A stretch of DNA of 64,000 bases from the NCBI RefSeq assembly GCF_019355055.1, contig NZ_CP048411.1, positions 868,001 to 932,000 of the forward strand, written 5' to 3'. The position numbers and the translations under genes were made by a program. The stretch's first letter is position 1. Every line of letters starts with the position of its first letter. The notes under the pieces are model-generated. The model had not been told where the DNA came from. It saw only the letters and a program-made list of their open reading frames with translations, and did no database searches. This stretch comes from Pseudomonas sp. MTM4 (GTDB lineage: Bacteria; Pseudomonadota; Gammaproteobacteria; Pseudomonadales; Pseudomonadaceae). Of this stretch, positions 10,278 to 18,994 are shown one piece after another.

Positions 10278-10301
10278 CTCCTGCCTAGCCGATCATTGCC
10301 A

Positions 10302-11648
10302 ATGCCTGTCTGCACCCTATACGCCCTCGAATACAAACCTGACCCCGCGAGCTGGTTCGAGCGAATTCGTCACGCCCACGGTGCGGTGCTGCTGGACTCC
10401 GGCAGGCCAGTCGCCGAGCGTGGTCGCTATGATCTGCTCAGCGCCTGGCCGCTCAGCATCTTCGAGCCCGACGCAAACGAATCCGGTGCAGCTTTTTTCC
10501 AGCGCCTGCGCCAGGCGCTCGAGCTGCTTGGCCGCGCCGACATCCCTGACGATTGCCCCCTACCCTTTGCGGGTGGCTTGATCGGCCTGCTGGCCTACGA
10601 CTTTGGCAGACGGCTCGAGGCATTACCGAACCGTGCTCGGGATGACCTGGCGCTACCCGCCGCCCGGTTCGGCCTCTACCCGTGGGCACTGATCAACGAT
10701 CACCAGCTCAAGCGCTGCCATCTGGTATTTCATCCCAGCCTTGGCGATATAGACCGCCAGCGCCTGATACGGTTATTCGAGACCGATGCCGAATATGAAC
10801 ACGAGCCATTCGAGCTCCAAGCGAAGTTCACTGCCGAGCTCGAGCTTAACGGCTATAAGCAGGCCGTCGAGAAGATCCAGCGCTATATCCAGGAAGGCGA
10901 TTGCTATCAGGTGAACTTTGCCCAGCGCTTCCAGGCGCCCTGTCAGGGCGATGAATGGGATGCTTATCGTCGTGTGCGTAATGCTTGCCCCACGCCTTTT
11001 TCTGGCTTTATCGCGCTCGACGGTGGTGCTATTGCCAGCTTTTCACCAGAGCGCTTTCTTCGGCTAAAGGAAGGTCGCGTCGAAACCCGGCCGATCAAGG
11101 GCACCCGCCAAAGGGGCATGGACCCGCACACCGATGCGGAGCAAGCTCAGGCGCTGCTGGCAAGCGACAAGGATCGAGCGGAAAATCTGATGATCGTCGA
11201 CCTGATGCGCAACGACCTCGGCCGCAGCTGCCGAATCGGCAGCGTGCAGGTGCCTGAGCTTTTCGCGTTGGAAAGCTATCCCAACGTGCATCACCTGGTC
11301 AGCTGCGTCAGCGGAACCCTGGCCTATGGTCAGGACGCGTTCGGTCTTCTTGCTGGCAGCTTTCCCGGCGGTTCGATCACAGGCGCACCAAAAATCCGCG
11401 CGATGCAGATTATCGACGAACTGGAAGCCACCTGTCGCTCGATTTACTGTGGCTCTCTGCTGTATATCGACGTTCGCGGCGAGATGGACAGCTCCATCGC
11501 CATCCGCACCCTACTGATAAAAGACCAGTTGGTTACCTGCTGGGGCGGTGGCGGAATCGTCGCAGACTCTGATTGGCACGCGGAATACGAGGAGTCCATA
11601 GGCAAGGTCAAGGTGCTTATGGAAGTGCTGGAAACCATCCCTCATTAA
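10302..11648 (+). CDS. pabB: Aminodeoxychorismate synthase component I PabB
   Basis: A 448-residue chorismate-utilising enzyme that aminates chorismate for p-aminobenzoate and folate synthesis, working with a PabA glutaminase encoded elsewhere. The N-terminal domain carries GGLIGLLAYDFGRRLEALP. The C-terminal chorismate-binding domain shows CYQVNFAQRF, SFSPERFL, TRPIKGTRQRG and FPGGSITGAPKIRAMQIIDELE. The PIKGT motif separates PabB and TrpE from isochorismate synthases, and the context next to thrH and cysH in pseudomonads points to PabB. The ATG at 10302 is chosen over the in-frame TTG at 10296. The following SMC operon begins 68 bases downstream on the same strand with no evident terminator. 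Confidence 0.93.
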   Translation: MPVCTLYALEYKPDPASWFERIRHAHGAVLLDSGRPVAERGRYDLLSAWPLSIFEPDANESGAAFFQRLRQALELLGRADIPDDCPLPFAGGLIGLLAYDFGRRLEALPNRARDDLALPAARFGLYPWALINDHQLKRCHLVFHPSLGDIDRQRLIRLFETDAEYEHEPFELQAKFTAELELNGYKQAVEKIQRYIQEGDCYQVNFAQRFQAPCQGDEWDAYRRVRNACPTPFSGFIALDGGAIASFSPERFLRLKEGRVETRPIKGTRQRGMDPHTDAEQAQALLASDKDRAENLMIVDLMRNDLGRSCRIGSVQVPELFALESYPNVHHLVSCVSGTLAYGQDAFGLLAGSFPGGSITGAPKIRAMQIIDELEATCRSIYCGSLLYIDVRGEMDSSIAIRTLLIKDQLVTCWGGGGIVADSDWHAEYEESIGKVKVLMEVLETIPH

Positions 11649-11716: not shown

Positions 11717-14700
11717 ATGCCCAGCCTGAATCGCATCATTCTCATAAACACCCACCTCAAGGGTGTGGTCGAGCTGGTGGTGGATGATCACACCAACATC
11801 TGCGGTACCAACGCTTCCGGTAAAACCACCCTCCAGCGCCTGGTACCGGTGTTTTATGGCGAATACCCGAGCCGCGTAGTGCCCTCAACGCGCGACAGTT
11901 TCGAGCGCTGGTATCTACCTACGGACCAGAGCTTCATCGTGTTCGAATACCGGCGTATGGACGACGAGCTGTGTCAGGCCGTGCTCGCAGCCGCCAGTGA
12001 CGGCAAGGGTGTTGACTACCGCCTAGTGCTCAAGGCGTTCGACCTGGACGATTACATTAAGAACCGCCAGGGCGACCGCATCAGCTGCCTGACCATGAAT
12101 GAGCTGGGCCGCCACTTCAAACAGATGGGTGTGGCCACGACCAATCAGCTGAACACTCGTCAGTTCCGCGCGATCATTCAAAACGATCGCAGCCTGCTCG
12201 CTGCCGATAACCAGCGCAGCGAGCTGCGCAGTCTGGCTCGCCAGTTCTCCCTGTGCGCGGGCGAGCATTCTCTACGGCATATCGAAAAGCTGGTGCGCGC
12301 CGTGCATTCGCGCGAAGGCAAGATGGAGACTATCAAGTCGATGATCGCGGCCATTCTCGAAGAGGATGGTGTGACACCGCCGACTACTCACCTGAACCCT
12401 CAGCGGGTCGAGGACTGGATTCGCGACAGCCAGCTGATCCAGGGCTTCGATGCGATTCGACCGGAGTTCGCCCGGCTGGAAGGCGATCATCAGGACTTGC
12501 AAAGCTGCGAGGCTCGCCTGAGCGGCCTGCTGTTGGCCTATCGCACTGACGAGCCCGTGCTGTTTGCGCGCCAGGAACAACTCAAGGACACGCTCGAACA
12601 GACCGGTTTCGCGCTCAAGCAGCTTGAAGAAAAGTGGCGCGACGAGCGCGACGAACTTTCCCTCTCGCTTTCCCAGGCCCAAGGCCAAATTGAAAGCGCA
12701 GAAACTCAGCTGACGCACATCGAGGAGCAATATCAGGGTTACCTTGACGTCAATATCGATCAGGCCAAGGCCGACCTGGAAAAGCTCGATGGCTGGAAGC
12801 TTGAACTCAACAATCTCAAGGAGCGGCTGCGACTGCTTACCGAGCAGCATGCAGACGTCCAAAACGCCTACCTGGAGCGCAAACAGGAGATTCAAGAGCA
12901 ACAGCAGGAAGCGCTGGAGCGCCTGCACGATCAGGAGCGTCAGCTACACGACGAGCTGGCCGCACGCAACCAGCAGAAGAACAGCGCCATTGGCCAGTTG
13001 GAGAAATCTTTTGGAAATCGCCAACAGGAAGCTGACGGTCGCTTTCGCGAGCAGAAACACGCCGTCCAGCTAGAGCAGCGCAGCCTGGAACAGCAGATCG
13101 CCAGTTTCAGCTACAGCGAGGAAGAAGTCCTTAGCCTGAACATTTTCGACCGCCGCCTGGATGATGCCGAACACAAGCGAGAAGAAGCCAGCCAGACGCT
13201 GGATACCCTGATTCAAGAAGAACGCAAGCTACTGCGACAGCGAGAAGAAGGCAGCCAGCAACTCAACCTGGCCGCTCGCCGCGTAGCCGAGCGTCAGCGG
13301 ACGCGGGACGAGGCCGAACAGCTCCTCTACCCACGCCAGAACACCTTGCTCGAATTCCTGCGCCGCGAACAGCCTGGTTGGGAATTGCAGCTGGGGAAGG
13401 TGATCGAGCCTGCCCTGCTGCAGCGAACCGACCTGAAACCCGTACTCAGCGAGCTGCAGAGCGATAGCCTGTATGGCGTGCACCTCGAACTGGCTGCCTT
13501 GGAAACACCGGAGCATGCGGCTAGCGAAGCCGAGTTGCGCCATCGTCTGCAGCTCGCCGAAGACAACCTGCAGGATGCGCAGCATCAGCAGCAGCAGTCG
13601 GAGCAGGAACTGGCGGAAACCAGCGCCGTCCTGGAAGCGTTTAACCCCCGCCTTGTGGTAGCACGTACCGAGCTTCAGAACCGCAAGGGCGATCATCAGC
13701 GGCTTAAGGAAGAACGTGCTGCGCTCAGGGGGCGTCTGGAGGCTGCCTTAGCCGAACGGCGACTTGAAGCCAAGAAACAGCTCAGTGAGCTGGACAATGT
13801 GATCAAACAACTCCAGCTGGAACAGGAAAACCTGCAGGAAGAGCTGGAAGCGCAATTCCAGGAAGCACGAATGGAAACTCTTGCGCATTGGCAGCAGGTG
13901 ATCGGCGATCTGGATCAACGGCTGGCGCAGCTCAAGACCCAGATCGACAACCAGCGTCGCACTGGTAAGACCGAACTGGAGGCCTGTGAACAGTGGTACC
14001 AGAACGAACTGAAATCTCGCGGTGTGGATGAAACCCAGCTGATCCAGCTCAAAACCGATCTGCGCACGCTCGACCAGCGCATCAGGGACACCGAAGCCCG
14101 CCGAGCCGAAGTCAACCGCTACCAGGAGTGGTATGCGTTGAGCTGGCTGAAGGTCAAACCCAGGTTGCAGGATGAGCTGACCAGCCAGAAAGTACTGGCC
14201 ACCGATCTCAAGCAGCAGCTAGATGCCGCCTCTACCCGGTTCAAGGCCAACCGCGGAGCTCTGGAAAAGCAGAAGCAACAGGCTCAGCAGGCCCAAGGCG
14301 TTGTCGGCGACCAGCTGGACAGCCTGAAGACACTGCTGCGTCGTTTGGGCGAGCTCAAGCTGCCGCGCGAAGGCACGCTCGCAGAAGGCGAGCTCGATGA
14401 GCGTCTGCGGCACGGCCAGGAGCAACTGCATCACCGCGACGCCCTGCTCGCCGCCATCAAACAGCACGTGGACCGCTTCGACACCCTCATCGCAAGCAAG
14501 TCCGGCTCCAGCCTGGCGGAAACCTGGGAGCGCAGCCGTGAAGAATGCAGCCGAATCAACGAACGTGGCATCCCCAGCTTGGATTATCGCCGCCTGGTAC
14601 CGGCGCTCGACGAGCTGCTCAACAAGCTGGTTCCGCAAAGCCTCAACGGCCTGCGCGAGCAAGGGCGGATCTTTGGTAACGAGCTGTTTACCTTCTTCGA

Positions 14701-15391
14701 CATTCTGACGGACATCGATAAGCGCATCGCCAACCAGAGCGCCCGCATCACTCGGGAAGTCAGCGAGGACCTGCTTCTCGAAGGCGTATCCAATTCCGCG
14801 GTGACGATTCGCTCACGCATCACCGAACTGGAGTTCTGGCCGGAGCTGCGTGCCTTCGCTCGTGCCTACCTAGCCTGGGAAGAAAGCGGCTTTGCCGAGC
14901 TGCCCAATGGCGACTACACCGGCAGCATGCGCCGCGCATTGGAAGTTCTTGGCCGCTCTGCGTTGAACAGCGGTATTGCAGGTTTATTGGAAATCGAACT
15001 GCGTCTACGTGAAGGTCGAAGCGATCTCGTCATCCGCACCGACCGCCAGCTCAATGAATCCTCCAGTCACGGGATGGCTTATCTGATTCTCTGCAAGTTT
15101 CTGCTGGCGTTCACTCGGCTGCTACGAGGTAACGCGCCCGCGGTTATTCATTGGCCGATCGACGAGCTGGGCACCTTACACCACGCCAACGTGAAGAAAA
15201 TCTTCGATGCTTGCGGCAACAACTCGATCCGCATCCTCGGCGCTTTCCCTAACCCGGACTCTGAAGTGCTGTCGCTGTTTGCCAATCGCTACATTGTCAA
15301 CAAACAGACCCGCCAGCTGCAGGTGGTCAAACCGCGTCTGGACGTGATCGGCGAACGCCTCAAGGCGCGCATGGCCGAGGAGACCGTCTAA
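11717..15391 (+). CDS. SMC/MukB-like coiled-coil ATPase of a Wadjet/MksBEFG-type system (JetC/MksB-like)
   Basis: A 1224-residue SMC-like ATPase. Walker A is GTNASGKT at residues 30-37. Long Gln/Glu/Leu-rich coiled coils occupy roughly 270-540 and 615-950, broken by a non-coiled hinge-like segment at about 540-610. The C-terminal head has the ABC signature-like SSSHG (about 1115-1119) and a Walker B region ending WPIDELG, with D1149 and E1150. This resembles the DUF3584 (PF12128) family. It should load on DNA with the next two genes as kite and kleisin partners. The start is the ATG at 11717 (MPSLNRIILINTHLKG); upstream codons overlap pabB. TAATG overlap with the next gene. I do not recognise a standard symbol. 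Confidence 0.85.
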   Translation: MPSLNRIILINTHLKGVVELVVDDHTNICGTNASGKTTLQRLVPVFYGEYPSRVVPSTRDSFERWYLPTDQSFIVFEYRRMDDELCQAVLAAASDGKGVDYRLVLKAFDLDDYIKNRQGDRISCLTMNELGRHFKQMGVATTNQLNTRQFRAIIQNDRSLLAADNQRSELRSLARQFSLCAGEHSLRHIEKLVRAVHSREGKMETIKSMIAAILEEDGVTPPTTHLNPQRVEDWIRDSQLIQGFDAIRPEFARLEGDHQDLQSCEARLSGLLLAYRTDEPVLFARQEQLKDTLEQTGFALKQLEEKWRDERDELSLSLSQAQGQIESAETQLTHIEEQYQGYLDVNIDQAKADLEKLDGWKLELNNLKERLRLLTEQHADVQNAYLERKQEIQEQQQEALERLHDQERQLHDELAARNQQKNSAIGQLEKSFGNRQQEADGRFREQKHAVQLEQRSLEQQIASFSYSEEEVLSLNIFDRRLDDAEHKREEASQTLDTLIQEERKLLRQREEGSQQLNLAARRVAERQRTRDEAEQLLYPRQNTLLEFLRREQPGWELQLGKVIEPALLQRTDLKPVLSELQSDSLYGVHLELAALETPEHAASEAELRHRLQLAEDNLQDAQHQQQQSEQELAETSAVLEAFNPRLVVARTELQNRKGDHQRLKEERAALRGRLEAALAERRLEAKKQLSELDNVIKQLQLEQENLQEELEAQFQEARMETLAHWQQVIGDLDQRLAQLKTQIDNQRRTGKTELEACEQWYQNELKSRGVDETQLIQLKTDLRTLDQRIRDTEARRAEVNRYQEWYALSWLKVKPRLQDELTSQKVLATDLKQQLDAASTRFKANRGALEKQKQQAQQAQGVVGDQLDSLKTLLRRLGELKLPREGTLAEGELDERLRHGQEQLHHRDALLAAIKQHVDRFDTLIASKSGSSLAETWERSREECSRINERGIPSLDYRRLVPALDELLNKLVPQSLNGLREQGRIFGNELFTFFDILTDIDKRIANQSARITREVSEDLLLEGVSNSAVTIRSRITELEFWPELRAFARAYLAWEESGFAELPNGDYTGSMRRALEVLGRSALNSGIAGLLEIELRLREGRSDLVIRTDRQLNESSSHGMAYLILCKFLLAFTRLLRGNAPAVIHWPIDELGTLHHANVKKIFDACGNNSIRILGAFPNPDSEVLSLFANRYIVNKQTRQLQVVKPRLDVIGERLKARMAEETV

Positions 15392-16032
15392 TGTTATCCA
15401 TCAAAGGCAACGTGATTGAATTGCTGCTGCAAGGGGCTTTCATCTGCCGGACCAGCAATGAAGAAGGCTGGCGATTCTTGAAGAACCCGGCCAACCGCGA
15501 ACAAGTGGACGAGTACCTGAACACCCTCAACCGAGTTGTCGCCACGGTCGGGGGCGCTGCCGACGCCGACGTGTTCTTCTGCGGCTATCGCCAGTTGGGA
15601 GACGCCGAGCGACGGATCGTCAGCCAGCAATTCCGCGACATTTGCAATGCGCTGACGCCGCTCGCGGAGTGGCTGGTCTTGGTACAGGAAGCCAGCGCTC
15701 AGGATGCCCCGCTGACTGAAGGAAGCCCGATTCGTCTCAACGAACTGCAAAGCATCGTCGAAGACACGCCGGCGTTCCGCGAGCAGCTCAACCGTATCAG
15801 CCATTACGCCTTGTTTCGCTCTACCAGTAGCAACGTCGACGCTCAGATCAAGCAGGTATTTAAAAAGCTGTGCGAACTAGGCTATCTGTTGCGCCCAAAT
15901 CCCGACAAACAGATATTTCTCGGCACCGGTAAGCTGGATTACCTCTACGAAGTGATCCGTTTCATCGACGAAGCAGAAGGGCTGGCACTGGAGGAGCGTG
16001 CCGAAGCCTCCAGCCAGGGCAATCTGATATGA
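15391..16032 (+). CDS. Winged-helix 'kite' subunit (JetB/MksE-like)
   Basis: A 213-residue, mostly helical protein. Its ATG shares one base with the stop of the SMC gene (TAATG), indicating translational coupling. The size and the C-terminal winged-helix look (QIKQVFKKLCELGYLLRPNPDKQIFLGTGK) fit the small MksE/JetB component that bridges kleisin and ATPase in Mks and Wadjet complexes. No catalytic motif is visible. The assignment rests on length, fold impression and position rather than a recognised motif, so the subunit name is an inference. Confidence 0.7.
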   Translation: MLSIKGNVIELLLQGAFICRTSNEEGWRFLKNPANREQVDEYLNTLNRVVATVGGAADADVFFCGYRQLGDAERRIVSQQFRDICNALTPLAEWLVLVQEASAQDAPLTEGSPIRLNELQSIVEDTPAFREQLNRISHYALFRSTSSNVDAQIKQVFKKLCELGYLLRPNPDKQIFLGTGKLDYLYEVIRFIDEAEGLALEERAEASSQGNLI

Positions 16033-17249
16033 ACAACAACCTGCATCAGGCCGGCGTGCGCTTCCTGCGCCAGCTGGGGCGCCATGCCGAACCAATTATG
16101 GGCGCCTATCTGGCGGGCTCTGTGCCTGACCAGAGCCTCGAGCCCGGCGTACAGGAGCGCCTGATCAAGGACGGCATTCTGTATCGCCCCGAGCCTGGCT
16201 CCGATCTGCACTTGCGCCGTGTGGTGCGCGCGTTACTCGAGGAAGCGCTGCGCGACGACCGCAATCGGCAGATCGACGCCAACACCGGCTCGACGCTTGC
16301 TACGTTCAAGACCTTGGCTGCGCATTACAAGGAAGCCCATCACCAGGGTGACTTTCCAGCGGCAGACGCCTATCTGGCCGATTTACGCGAGCACGTCTAC
16401 AGCTTTACCGAAGGGCTGAGCCACAGCATTCGAGTGCTGTGGAGCCGGATCAATAACGAGTTCGGCTATGTCGGCAGCCTGACTGCGAAAATCCGCGAAA
16501 ACGAGCTGGCCCAGTCTCAGGTGAGCGAACTGCTCAATGGGCTGGAAATGATCGATTTCCAGGAGCTAGCAGATACTGCGGGCGATTTAAGAGAGCTACG
16601 CCGCCTACTGGTGGCCAGCCTGCAACGCAGCGTCAGTGCCTGTTCGCAGGAGCTGAGTATCGTCCAGGGCCGCTTGTTGGAGCTGCTGGGCCGCTTCCGA
16701 AAGATTCAAGGCCGCACCCTGCTGCTCAAGGGCTGGCTGCTGCACGGCGAGCAGCAACCGGACTATCAGGTCGGCAACCACACGGCCCGCTCACAGTTGC
16801 CGCAGCTTTTCAGCCTGGCCCCGCCTACCCTGGGCCCAGCCGCAGTTAACATCCATGCCAGTAGTCATGAAGCCGACCTGCTCGCCCTGCTCGCACAAAT
16901 CAAGGCCTCGCAACAAGCGGAGAATATGCTCACCCCGCCGCCAGAAGCCGAAGAGTTGCTGCTGCAGGAAGTCGAAGGCTTCGAGGTGCAAACCAGTCCG
17001 ATTCAGGAAGCAGTGCAGGACTATCTCTGCCATGTGATAGAGAACGGTCACCCCGTCACAGCCCTGACTTGGCATTTACAACAGGCGCTGCCCTGGGAAA
17101 CGGAATCCTGGCTCTATCAGGTGATCGGCGGCTACGACGCCCTGCCCGATGACCAGAAGAGCCATTTCGAACTGGACCTGCAGGGCGAGTCCCATCCGAT
17201 TTACAGCGGCAACTACATCGTGCGGGACATTGCCTTGTGGCTAGCCTAG
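16029..17249 (+). CDS. Kleisin-like subunit (JetA/MksF-like)
   Basis: A 406-residue helical protein overlapping the previous gene by four bases (ATGA). The N-terminal half contains winged-helix and helical-bundle character (ERLIKDGILYRPEPGSDLHLRR, then long helices around residues 70-260); a low-complexity linker and a C-terminal segment follow. This domain plan and gene position match the kleisin of Mks/Wadjet complexes, which is usually around 400-500 residues. AACAACAA directly after the start codon looks like a Crc/Hfq motif but may only reflect three Asn codons. Homologues could carry misleading enzyme names in databases; I see no enzymatic motif. Confidence 0.68.
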   Translation: MNNNLHQAGVRFLRQLGRHAEPIMGAYLAGSVPDQSLEPGVQERLIKDGILYRPEPGSDLHLRRVVRALLEEALRDDRNRQIDANTGSTLATFKTLAAHYKEAHHQGDFPAADAYLADLREHVYSFTEGLSHSIRVLWSRINNEFGYVGSLTAKIRENELAQSQVSELLNGLEMIDFQELADTAGDLRELRRLLVASLQRSVSACSQELSIVQGRLLELLGRFRKIQGRTLLLKGWLLHGEQQPDYQVGNHTARSQLPQLFSLAPPTLGPAAVNIHASSHEADLLALLAQIKASQQAENMLTPPPEAEELLLQEVEGFEVQTSPIQEAVQDYLCHVIENGHPVTALTWHLQQALPWETESWLYQVIGGYDALPDDQKSHFELDLQGESHPIYSGNYIVRDIALWLA

Positions 17250-18058
17250 AGATGCGCCATCTCAATGCTGTCCACCGTGCGGTGCGGAACAAACCACTCG
17301 CGGTGCCGCTCGGTACTATCTGGGAGGATATTCGCCGCCACGTTGAAATCGGTACACCGCGTAGTGGAAAACTAAAATTGAACGACGCCGATTACCGGGC
17401 GCTGCGTACGTTTTTTCTTCGAGTTGAGGGCTGGGATCCGATAACGCCACCGCCTGCCGGTAATCGCACAGAGATTGCCCGCCAATTCCGAGATGACAAG
17501 CGAGGAGCGGAACGCCCGGGCGATAACTTCGTACTGGTCAAGGGTAACCTGCCCGCGCCTCTGCCGCAGTCGCCCGCAGAACTCAGCCTACGAGTCCCGC
17601 TGGACCGACTAGCCTTGGCACAGGTTCGCGATCTCGTGTTGGTAGAGAACCTGGACAGCTTTGACCAGTGGCAGGAATACCGCATCCCCGAAGCGCTCAA
17701 CGACGCGCTGGTGTTGTACCGAGGCCATGGCGGACTGGCTCGCGGCGCGCGAAAGCTGATTGCACAACTACCCGAGTCGGTGTGTCTGCATGTCTTTCCC
17801 GATTTCGATCCGGCGGGTCTTGTTATCGCGGTCAGCATGTCAGCCCGCGGCCTGTTAATTCCCGCACTCGGCGATAAGCTTATGGAGAGAAGCCACCGCG
17901 ATCATTTCGAGCGCCAATACCGCCAAAGCAAGCACCTCGATGAACTTGAACTAGGTGGTTGGCGGCCCGTCTGGCAGGCAATGCGTGAGCAGCGGCTGAG
18001 CATCAAACAGCAGCACATGCTGGCATTTGATGCAGCCTTACAGTTGGTAATGCGCTAG
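17237..18058 (+). CDS. Toprim-domain nuclease subunit (JetD/MksG-like), compact form
   Basis: A 273-residue protein (268 if the ATG at 17252 is used). The Toprim core is clear: LVLVENLDSF with E137, and VFPDFDPAGL with the acidic pair D189 and D191 and G194, as in topoisomerase VI-A-like JetD/MksG nucleases. In Wadjet systems this subunit cleaves the closed-circular plasmid DNA extruded by the SMC complex. I choose the GTG at 17237, which overlaps the kleisin gene by 13 bases and has GGGA nine bases upstream; the ATG lacks a good site. JetD proteins I know are about 380-400 residues, so the N-terminal arm domain is reduced here. Last gene of the four-gene operon. Confidence 0.8.
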   Translation: MASLEMRHLNAVHRAVRNKPLAVPLGTIWEDIRRHVEIGTPRSGKLKLNDADYRALRTFFLRVEGWDPITPPPAGNRTEIARQFRDDKRGAERPGDNFVLVKGNLPAPLPQSPAELSLRVPLDRLALAQVRDLVLVENLDSFDQWQEYRIPEALNDALVLYRGHGGLARGARKLIAQLPESVCLHVFPDFDPAGLVIAVSMSARGLLIPALGDKLMERSHRDHFERQYRQSKHLDELELGGWRPVWQAMREQRLSIKQQHMLAFDAALQLVMR

Positions 18059-18191: not shown

Positions 18192-18809
18192 TTACAGCGA
18201 TAGCTCTCGGTTCGACGCCTTCAGGAATTCTTGCTTCAGCGCCTCGAACGTATGCACAGCCGGGAATTGCGGAAACTCGTGGATGACGTTGTCCGGTGCA
18301 TGGAAGAGGATGCCGGCGTGCGCCTCGGACAGCATGGTGGTGTCATTGTAGGAGTCGCCCGCCGCGATGACGCGGTAGTACAGGCTCTTCAGCGCGATCA
18401 CTGACTGCCGCTTGGGGTCTTTCTGGCGCAGCTCGTAATTTACGACACGCCCTGATTCGTCAGTGATCAGGCGATGGCAAAGCAGCGTCGGGAAGCCCAG
18501 CTGACGCATCAGCGGCTGCGAAAACTCATAGAACGTATCCGACAGGATCACAACCTGGAAGCGCTCGCGCAGCCAGTCGACGAACTCGACGGCGCCGTCG
18601 AGCGGTTTCAGGGTCGCGATGACGGCCTGGATATCCGACAATTTCAGACCGTGCTCGTCAAGGATGCGCAGCCGCTGCTTCATCAGCACGTCATAGTCAG
18701 GAATGTCCCGCGTGGTCGCCCGGAGGGATTCGATTCCAGTGGCCTCGGCAAAGGCGATCCAGATTTCCGGAACCAGCACACCTTCCAGGTCAAGACAGGC
18801 TATTTCCAC
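18192..18809 (-). CDS. thrH: Phosphoserine phosphatase / homoserine phosphotransferase ThrH
   Basis: A 205-residue HAD-superfamily enzyme, exactly the usual ThrH length. It dephosphorylates phosphoserine and can move the phosphate to homoserine. Motif I is CLDLEGVLVPE (DLEG instead of DxDG, typical of ThrH), motif II is VILSDTFYEF, and motif IV is IAAGDSYNDTTML. The start is a GTG at 18809, supported by the family N-terminus and by AAGGAG six bases upstream (18816-18821 on the minus strand); upstream codons are unrelated. It is convergent with the Toprim gene. Confidence 0.95.
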   Translation of the reverse strand: MEIACLDLEGVLVPEIWIAFAEATGIESLRATTRDIPDYDVLMKQRLRILDEHGLKLSDIQAVIATLKPLDGAVEFVDWLRERFQVVILSDTFYEFSQPLMRQLGFPTLLCHRLITDESGRVVNYELRQKDPKRQSVIALKSLYYRVIAAGDSYNDTTMLSEAHAGILFHAPDNVIHEFPQFPAVHTFEALKQEFLKASNRELSL

Positions 18810-18994
18810 GGGCCACTCCTTAAAGCAGAAAAATTGAAGCGGCACTCTAACGACAAGGGCGGAGCGGTGCAACGCGACGCCTTATTCACTAAAGTTAGGC
18901 GGCGCCTCAGCAAACGTTATTTAGCGTCATAAAGCCTATTTGTTACCATCCGCGGCCAGCAGAGCGCCCAAGCGCCAATCAAGGAAGCCGCCTG

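Follow-up and report, generated by a model that had tools for sequence, protein, structure and literature searches.

Wadjet systems of types I and III encode, like the operon described here, an SMC ATPase, a kite, a kleisin (in the operon a putative one), and a Topo-VI-A-like nuclease, and MksBEFG likewise has four parts. MukBEF has the gene order mukFEB and is not known to include a nuclease. The MukB family PF04310 is without match on the ATPase of the present operon. JetD and MksG are described as circular-DNA nucleases coupled to an SMC motor (PMC10586767, PMC10123090, PMC10512200), and the first of these papers also reports chromosomal use of the MksBEF core of P. aeruginosa (PMC10586767). 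Among the matches listed from the open-access literature, we found no description of the branch to which the present operon belongs; a mention in the founding Mks paper or in a main Wadjet paper is possible.

The window analyzed is a 64,000-nucleotide stretch of contig NZ_CP048411.1 of Pseudomonas sp. MTM4. Between positions 11717 and 18058, it carries four ORFs, all open and all on the plus strand, and neighboring ORFs share 1, 4, and 13 bases in the order ATPase, kite, kleisin, Toprim; coordinates, frames, and overlaps agree with a first-pass annotation, which had proposed a Wadjet- or MksBEFG-like operon. The operon and its flanks are as follows:

10296..11648, plus strand: upstream flank, chorismate-binding/anthranilate-synthase-like gene, which we take to be pabB (PF00425, 298 bits; PF04715, 64 bits)
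11717..15391, plus strand: SMC-type ATPase, 1224 amino acids, PF12128 (DUF3584) end to end
15391..16032, plus strand: predicted kite subunit, MksE/JetB/MukE-like tandem winged helix, 213 amino acids
16029..17249, plus strand: putative kleisin-like subunit, MukF/JetA-like, 406 amino acids
17237..18058, plus strand: Toprim protein, DUF7281, Topo VI A/JetD/MksG-like, predicted nuclease, 273 amino acids, GTG start
18192..18872, minus strand (opposite to the operon): downstream flank, presumably thrH

The four-gene set is not a chance arrangement because relatives in other genera have the identical gene order. Within the window's close clade, pabB lies upstream of the operon in 21 loci (13 genomes) and never on the other side, and thrH is on the downstream side in 17 of these 21. 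The pabB-flanked operons belong to Stutzerimonas, Pseudomonas, Serpens, and Azomonas; the pabB/thrH flank is absent from Azotobacter loci with close operons.

In a Pfam profile search, PF12128 spans residues 8-1196 of the ATPase at 1198 bits, bearing out its annotation as DUF3584-like. Across 20 aligned ATPases, the Walker A motif GTNASGKTT (from G30), the signature-like S1116/S1117/G1119, and the Walker B residues D1149/E1150 are invariant or nearly so. The annotated protein of 1224 residues with both Walker motifs thus holds up, and it has the Walker A, ABC signature, and Walker B of the SMC-like ATPase in an SMC-kleisin-kite complex. An upstream TTG start at 11573 was rejected; conservation starts at the ATG at 11717. 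DUF3584 matches all seven ATPases of the branch that were scanned, the window's own and six distant ones (445-763 bits), and had no match in the MksB or the JetC control scanned. Several PADLOC JetC models carry the label "DUF3584 domain," yet the scanned JetC is without a PF12128 match. One paper uses the name DUF3584 for a "chromosome segregation ATPase" that is encoded on a plasmid of Methanoperedens.

The Toprim protein matches PF23947 (DUF7281) at 172 bits. As a single sequence it had no match in the PDB; a 38-row profile, which includes three MksG-type rows, finds Topo VI A (1d3y, E 2.2e-4). Residues E137, D189, and D191, already singled out from the window sequence, are invariant both in the branch alignment (68/68 rows) and in the alignment that includes the MksG-type rows (38/38), giving the acidic E and DxD of a Topo-VI-A-like Toprim nuclease, as in MksBEFG.

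The predicted fold of the 213-residue protein places JetB and MukE at the top of the ranking, JetB being the closest structure in the PDB, and its assignment as a kite is well supported by this model. In sequence, only sub-threshold Pfam matches to MksE and DUF4194 were seen; the window's kite scores 17.7 bits against the MksE family PF21980 (cut-off 27), whereas the kite of MksBEFG matches at 119 bits, and some of the window's relatives do carry the domain. No PF21980 match was found in the window's genome, which is uninformative since the same search misses the window's own kite. For the 406-residue protein, MukF ranks top for the predicted fold, with weak scores, and its sequence had no Pfam match worth using; fold rank and gene position point to a kleisin. 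The first-pass pairing of these two proteins as kite and kleisin therefore stands for the kite, and the kleisin is a candidate by rank and place. Relatives of the latter are labeled phosphoenolpyruvate carboxylase in public records. With the kleisin assigned in this way, an SMC ATPase, kite, kleisin, and Toprim nuclease are encoded jointly, as in Wadjet.

Gene order was compared over 129 loci (L061-L189), picked by Toprim or kleisin similarity, of which 10 were set aside (eight with a Toprim gene beside other ATPase types and two cut before the ATPase). All 119 complete cores have ATPase-kite-kleisin on one strand, followed in 78 by a Toprim gene and in 41 by none. Because at least 11 genomes appear twice and the choice was by similarity, the figure of 119 refers to loci and should not be read as so many independent events. 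The annotated order ATPase-kite-kleisin-nuclease is found in the window and in every one of the 78 complete Toprim-bearing loci, and the ATPase-first arrangement is thus a rule of the whole branch rather than a peculiarity of the window. In contrast, in MksBEFG and in Wadjet types I and III the ATPase gene comes third: this holds for all 18 loci of these systems (15 of them Wadjet) that the same family provided for comparison, in which position and length served to identify the kleisin and kite. Neither the kleisin-kite-ATPase-nuclease order of Wadjet nor mksF-E-B-G was seen in the window's branch.

A tree of the ATPase heads (42 rows) placed the 20 ATPases of the window's branch in one clade (support 100/100), with the five MksB (100/100) as its sister clade (94/84); the type I and III Wadjet ATPases fall on the opposite side from both, and the program warns of long branches in this tree. 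The window's ATPase therefore lies outside the MksB clade as well as outside the Wadjet I/III clade, and the suggestion of a distinct branch is sustained, with a position beside MksB. Profile comparisons, in which the Wadjet sets were types I and III, agree with the tree for the N-terminal heads. The N-terminal head profile scored 97% to MksB (E 5e-11), 60-85% to three type I sets, and 6% to type III, and the C-terminal head profile reached 40% with MksB and no more than 3.4% with any other set. At odds with the ATPase heads, the kite profile scored 70% to one type I set versus 0.9% to MksE, and the kleisin profile had no signal with any set compared. The Toprim profile scored 84-93% to two type I sets and 11-51% to a third; built without the MksG-type rows, it scored 91-93% to MksG.

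The best PADLOC scores on the window's proteins were 17.3 (JetC3), 15.2 (JetD1), 12.9 (JetC1), and 11.3 bits (JetB1), with none for the kleisin, so a match to the type-specific JetA-D models of Wadjet types I-III was not reached. Five control Wadjet ATPases from the same family gave 1206 bits (type III) and 1303-1789 bits (four type I), and the proposed check against Wadjet models thus comes out as at most 17 bits for the window against 1206-1789 for controls. This failure is not peculiar to the window's branch because MksB, which scores 22 bits to JetC, and the ATPases of loci L099 and L240 are likewise missed by PADLOC. Likeness to MksBEFG extends, besides the sister ATPase heads, to the MksG-type Toprim, which also matches DUF7281 (37 bits); however, the Pseudomonas-type MksB, at ~920 amino acids and with no DUF3584, is shorter by ~300 residues than the window's ATPase. 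Similarly, type I JetD has 380-433 amino acids, whereas the window's nuclease, with DUF7281, has 273. The branch differs from Wadjet and MksBEFG in having a separate ATPase clade, a gene order not shared with them, and an intermittent nuclease; the parts are the same, and so, probably, is the chemistry.

In Pseudomonadaceae, the Toprim family occurs in 45/298 genomes (a count that includes MksG-type matches) and the kleisin in 36/298; the kleisin profile matches 9 of 369 genomes drawn from the window's class, the window's own included, and Toprim is also present in Thiocapsa and Thiorhodococcus. Distant copies were found on 6 of 72,556 plasmid records and on 1 of 50,697 phage records. The phage copy and three plasmid copies, each of the latter from a plasmid typed as conjugative, have the expected gene sizes and unchanged order, DUF7281 is in all four of the plasmid and phage copies opened, and DUF3584 is in the three ATPases scanned. 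In an Enterobacter plasmid copy, the ATPase is broken by an insertion sequence, and genes that we label CBASS-like are near. Among viral contigs, 117 pattern-matching stretches were searched by tblastn and none encodes a relative. Defense genes adjoin four of six distant-member loci, with one to five chosen neighbor proteins scanned per locus: type III restriction and a DrmD-like helicase at L075, type I restriction and a DRT-like protein at L076, an E1-E2/JAB protein at L078, and BREX genes at L081. The one neighbor scanned at L079 and the two at L080 had no defense match.

The intermittent nuclease is apparent in Shewanella. The kleisin is found in 129/129 genomes (sorted by hand into 122 close and 7 distant), although in one of the close copies, that of G380, a frameshift seems to divide it. 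Of 62 named Shewanella loci, 61 contain the complete set of three core genes, and the remaining one is cut by the contig. Three of the seven distant-kleisin genomes were examined (L209, L210, L214), and each has a whole distant operon at the same place, beside the same dicarboxylate-symporter-like gene; it seems that one operon was swapped for another without the site falling vacant. By contrast, a Toprim match, again sorted by hand, was detected in 62 of the 129 genomes and in none of the other 67. Of the 62, 52 are strong (>200 bits, including G380, whose Toprim is likewise frameshifted), 7 are in the distant-kleisin genomes, 2 (G414, G346) are distant copies not located at the close kleisin, and 1 is a stub (G371) in which only about residues 1-28 and 250-290 remain.

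Among 80 named loci, 44 have the Toprim gene (hereafter armed) and 36 do not (unarmed); one of the 36, L120, ends at a contig edge, and dropping it leaves 35. Whole-genome searches of 30 genomes from these 35 loci gave no Toprim match at all in 29, the exception being P. sagittaria with a weak match at an MksG locus. On a core tree of 79 loci, built by a quick method with SH-aLRT as its only support, a minimum of 11 changes of Toprim state is required (12 if L120 is included). A close pair illustrates the nature of the change: armed L116 and unarmed L158 are 97.6% identical to the end of the kleisin, after which realignment starts 834 bases on in L116 and 133 in L158, the difference of 701 bases being the site of the L116 Toprim gene. 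Six of seven other armed/unarmed pairs (two of which include L146) also realign, with the armed side 510-937 bases longer; L161/L127 does not. Over the 435 pairs among 30 Shewanella loci, Toprim and core distances are correlated (rho 0.886), and because the two agree, loss of Toprim is favored over its repeated gain. The nearest neighbors of L146, L170, and L182, all on long branches, differ between the Toprim and core trees.

The unarmed core shows little sign of decay. Walker A, Walker B, and signature are intact in 32/32 unarmed and 28/28 armed Shewanella ATPases. For pairs with 0.1-0.6 synonymous differences per site, the median dN/dS among unarmed Shewanella loci was 0.022 for the ATPase (26 pairs), 0.013 for the kite (32 pairs), and 0.023 for the kleisin (18 pairs), and 0.027, 0.023, and 0.029, respectively, among armed ones; the flanking symporter is similar, at 0.023 and 0.031. 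These medians are descriptive because pairs have branches in common. Toprim itself, at 0.142 (42 pairs), is about five times the core. Mixed armed/unarmed pairs, only two to nine in number, gave core values of 0.055-0.128, with the symporter also raised (0.068), and column entropy is somewhat greater in unarmed than in armed loci. Columns that separate armed from unarmed Shewanella (nine in the ATPase and two each in the kite and kleisin) are scattered, with no cluster as might mark nuclease docking. The constraint argument covers Shewanella and not the window's own clade because the two Pseudomonadaceae pairs gave 0.13-0.26. Since the unarmed core is intact and strongly constrained and the kleisin is in all 129 Shewanella genomes, a nuclease-independent core function is most likely, and the first-pass description of the operon as simply a plasmid-restricting condensin is too narrow. 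ScpA was found in 15/15 genomes searched, and Smc-ScpAB is therefore also there. MukB was rejected as the condensin of the unarmed genomes, as PF04310 matches 0/14 of them.

Our preferred reading, at a probability of about 0.6, is that the operon encodes a plasmid cutter akin to Wadjet/MksBEFG and that its motor additionally performs a job independent of the nuclease. A DUF3584 ATPase dimer with kleisin and kites would form a loop-extruding SMC complex, which the Topo-VI-A-like Toprim nuclease, the product of the fourth and last gene, would join. By homology to Wadjet/MksBEFG, the armed complex should then extrude DNA, sense a small closed circle, and cut it through the Toprim subunit. Even when the nuclease is absent, the extruding core would be of use to the host, probably as an additional chromosomal condensin alongside Smc-ScpAB; this role, for which P. 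aeruginosa MksBEF provides the analogy, is the simplest candidate. If the core is useful by itself, in-place loss of the nuclease can therefore occur under continued strong selection on the motor.

An ordinary Wadjet-like defense system, of which the unarmed Shewanella copies are decaying remnants, would account for the four parts, for the distant copies on plasmids and in defense neighborhoods, and for the Toprim stub of G371 and the frameshifts of G380. However, decay on such a scale predicts many broken copies and few were seen, the unarmed ATPases all retain their motifs, the kleisin is in all 129 Shewanella genomes, and unarmed dN/dS is as low as that of armed cores and the symporter; we consider this explanation unlikely. 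The fixed chromosomal locus and strong core constraint in Shewanella would suit a chromosomal condensin with an accessory topoisomerase-like Toprim that decatenates or cuts loops and does not act on plasmids, and the best PDB match of the Toprim profile is indeed Topo VI A. Y161, in the Toprim part, is nearly invariant in the 68-row alignment; but it is F in some distant rows of the 38-row alignment, and a covalent tyrosine mechanism is thus unsupported by invariance. The raised dN/dS of Toprim and its frequent loss, together with the defense genes that adjoin some related operons, also speak against such a role, which we regard as improbable.

It could alternatively be the nuclease-free complex that is ancestral, with the Toprim gene gained many times. 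The 11 state changes are a count that cannot separate gain from loss, and the discordant neighbors of L146, L170, and L182 would fit with gain. The broad concordance of Toprim and core distances, the G371 stub, and the clean gaps are nevertheless more readily read as loss, and Toprim is present in Pseudomonadaceae, Thiocapsa, and Thiorhodococcus as well as in the plasmid and phage copies; of the explanations considered, we rate this one as the least probable, if only slightly below the topoisomerase-like role. The reading of a plasmid cutter with a separately useful motor can be taken a step further, although tentatively and at somewhat less than even odds: one loop-extruding core may both organize the chromosome and, with Toprim, destroy small circles, the nuclease module being repeatedly discarded, and perhaps regained, at a fixed locus. 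If so, plasmid cutters would have become condensins many times within a single branch, and armed species would need a means of running a nuclease-bearing condensin without cutting their own chromosome. The many in-place transitions and close armed/unarmed pairs make the interconversion of plasmid defense and chromosome upkeep open to experiment. DUF3584, DUF7281, and the family named "phosphoenolpyruvate carboxylase" gain a likely role, and a Wadjet-like branch unmatched by PADLOC 2.0.0 is added.

The operon does not have a foreign base composition (GC 0.590 versus 0.600 for the window). A promoter scan found none, with 1.5 expected, and terminator-like sites numbered 12, with 7.2 (sd 2.3) expected, 11 of the 12 being on the minus strand. 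The chromosome is Stutzerimonas-like, the closest named kleisin being that of Stutzerimonas stutzeri 28a39, at 99% identity.

Three Shewanella genomes (loci L209, L210 and L214) carry a distant version of the operon at the usual site beside the symporter-like gene, where its ATPase scores 167-209 bits versus ~1400 for the usual Shewanella ATPase. In one of these genomes, G415, a 115-residue piece from the end of a closer kleisin, with a stop (133.7 bits), adjoins the distant operon, as though an exchange of the entire operon had taken place at this site.

In three Shewanella genomes, all of which are without the Toprim gene, the kleisin gene is followed by tandem copies of its own 3' end; the repeat unit is ~135-150 bases, and the copies are perhaps a trace of the route by which the Toprim gene was lost.

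Tandem copies of the kleisin 3' end in unarmed Shewanella loci
L202, 5221-5755
L203, 5081-5415
L204, 1-442
L205, 1-420

Copies of the operon were also found in phage and plasmid records. The 209-kb record of Dolichospermum phage Dfl-JY45 contains a four-gene copy (L245, 2678-9033), which is either truly phage-borne or part of a bacterial stretch inside the phage record. An Enterobacter hormaechei IncC plasmid, typed as conjugative, carries a distant copy (L243, 1124-8874) with its ATPase gene split by an IS256-type element; CBASS-like genes lie nearby.

Two more loci have gene sizes fitting a kleisin, kite, SMC-ATPase and nuclease, and perhaps represent further unnamed types; neither ATPase had a good match among the PADLOC JetC models.

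Loci with four genes of these sizes
L099, 851-8284, ATPase of 1473 aa
L240, 9790-17980, ATPase of 1650 aa

Public records give many relatives of the window kleisin (16029-17249) the name phosphoenolpyruvate carboxylase, apparently a misannotation.
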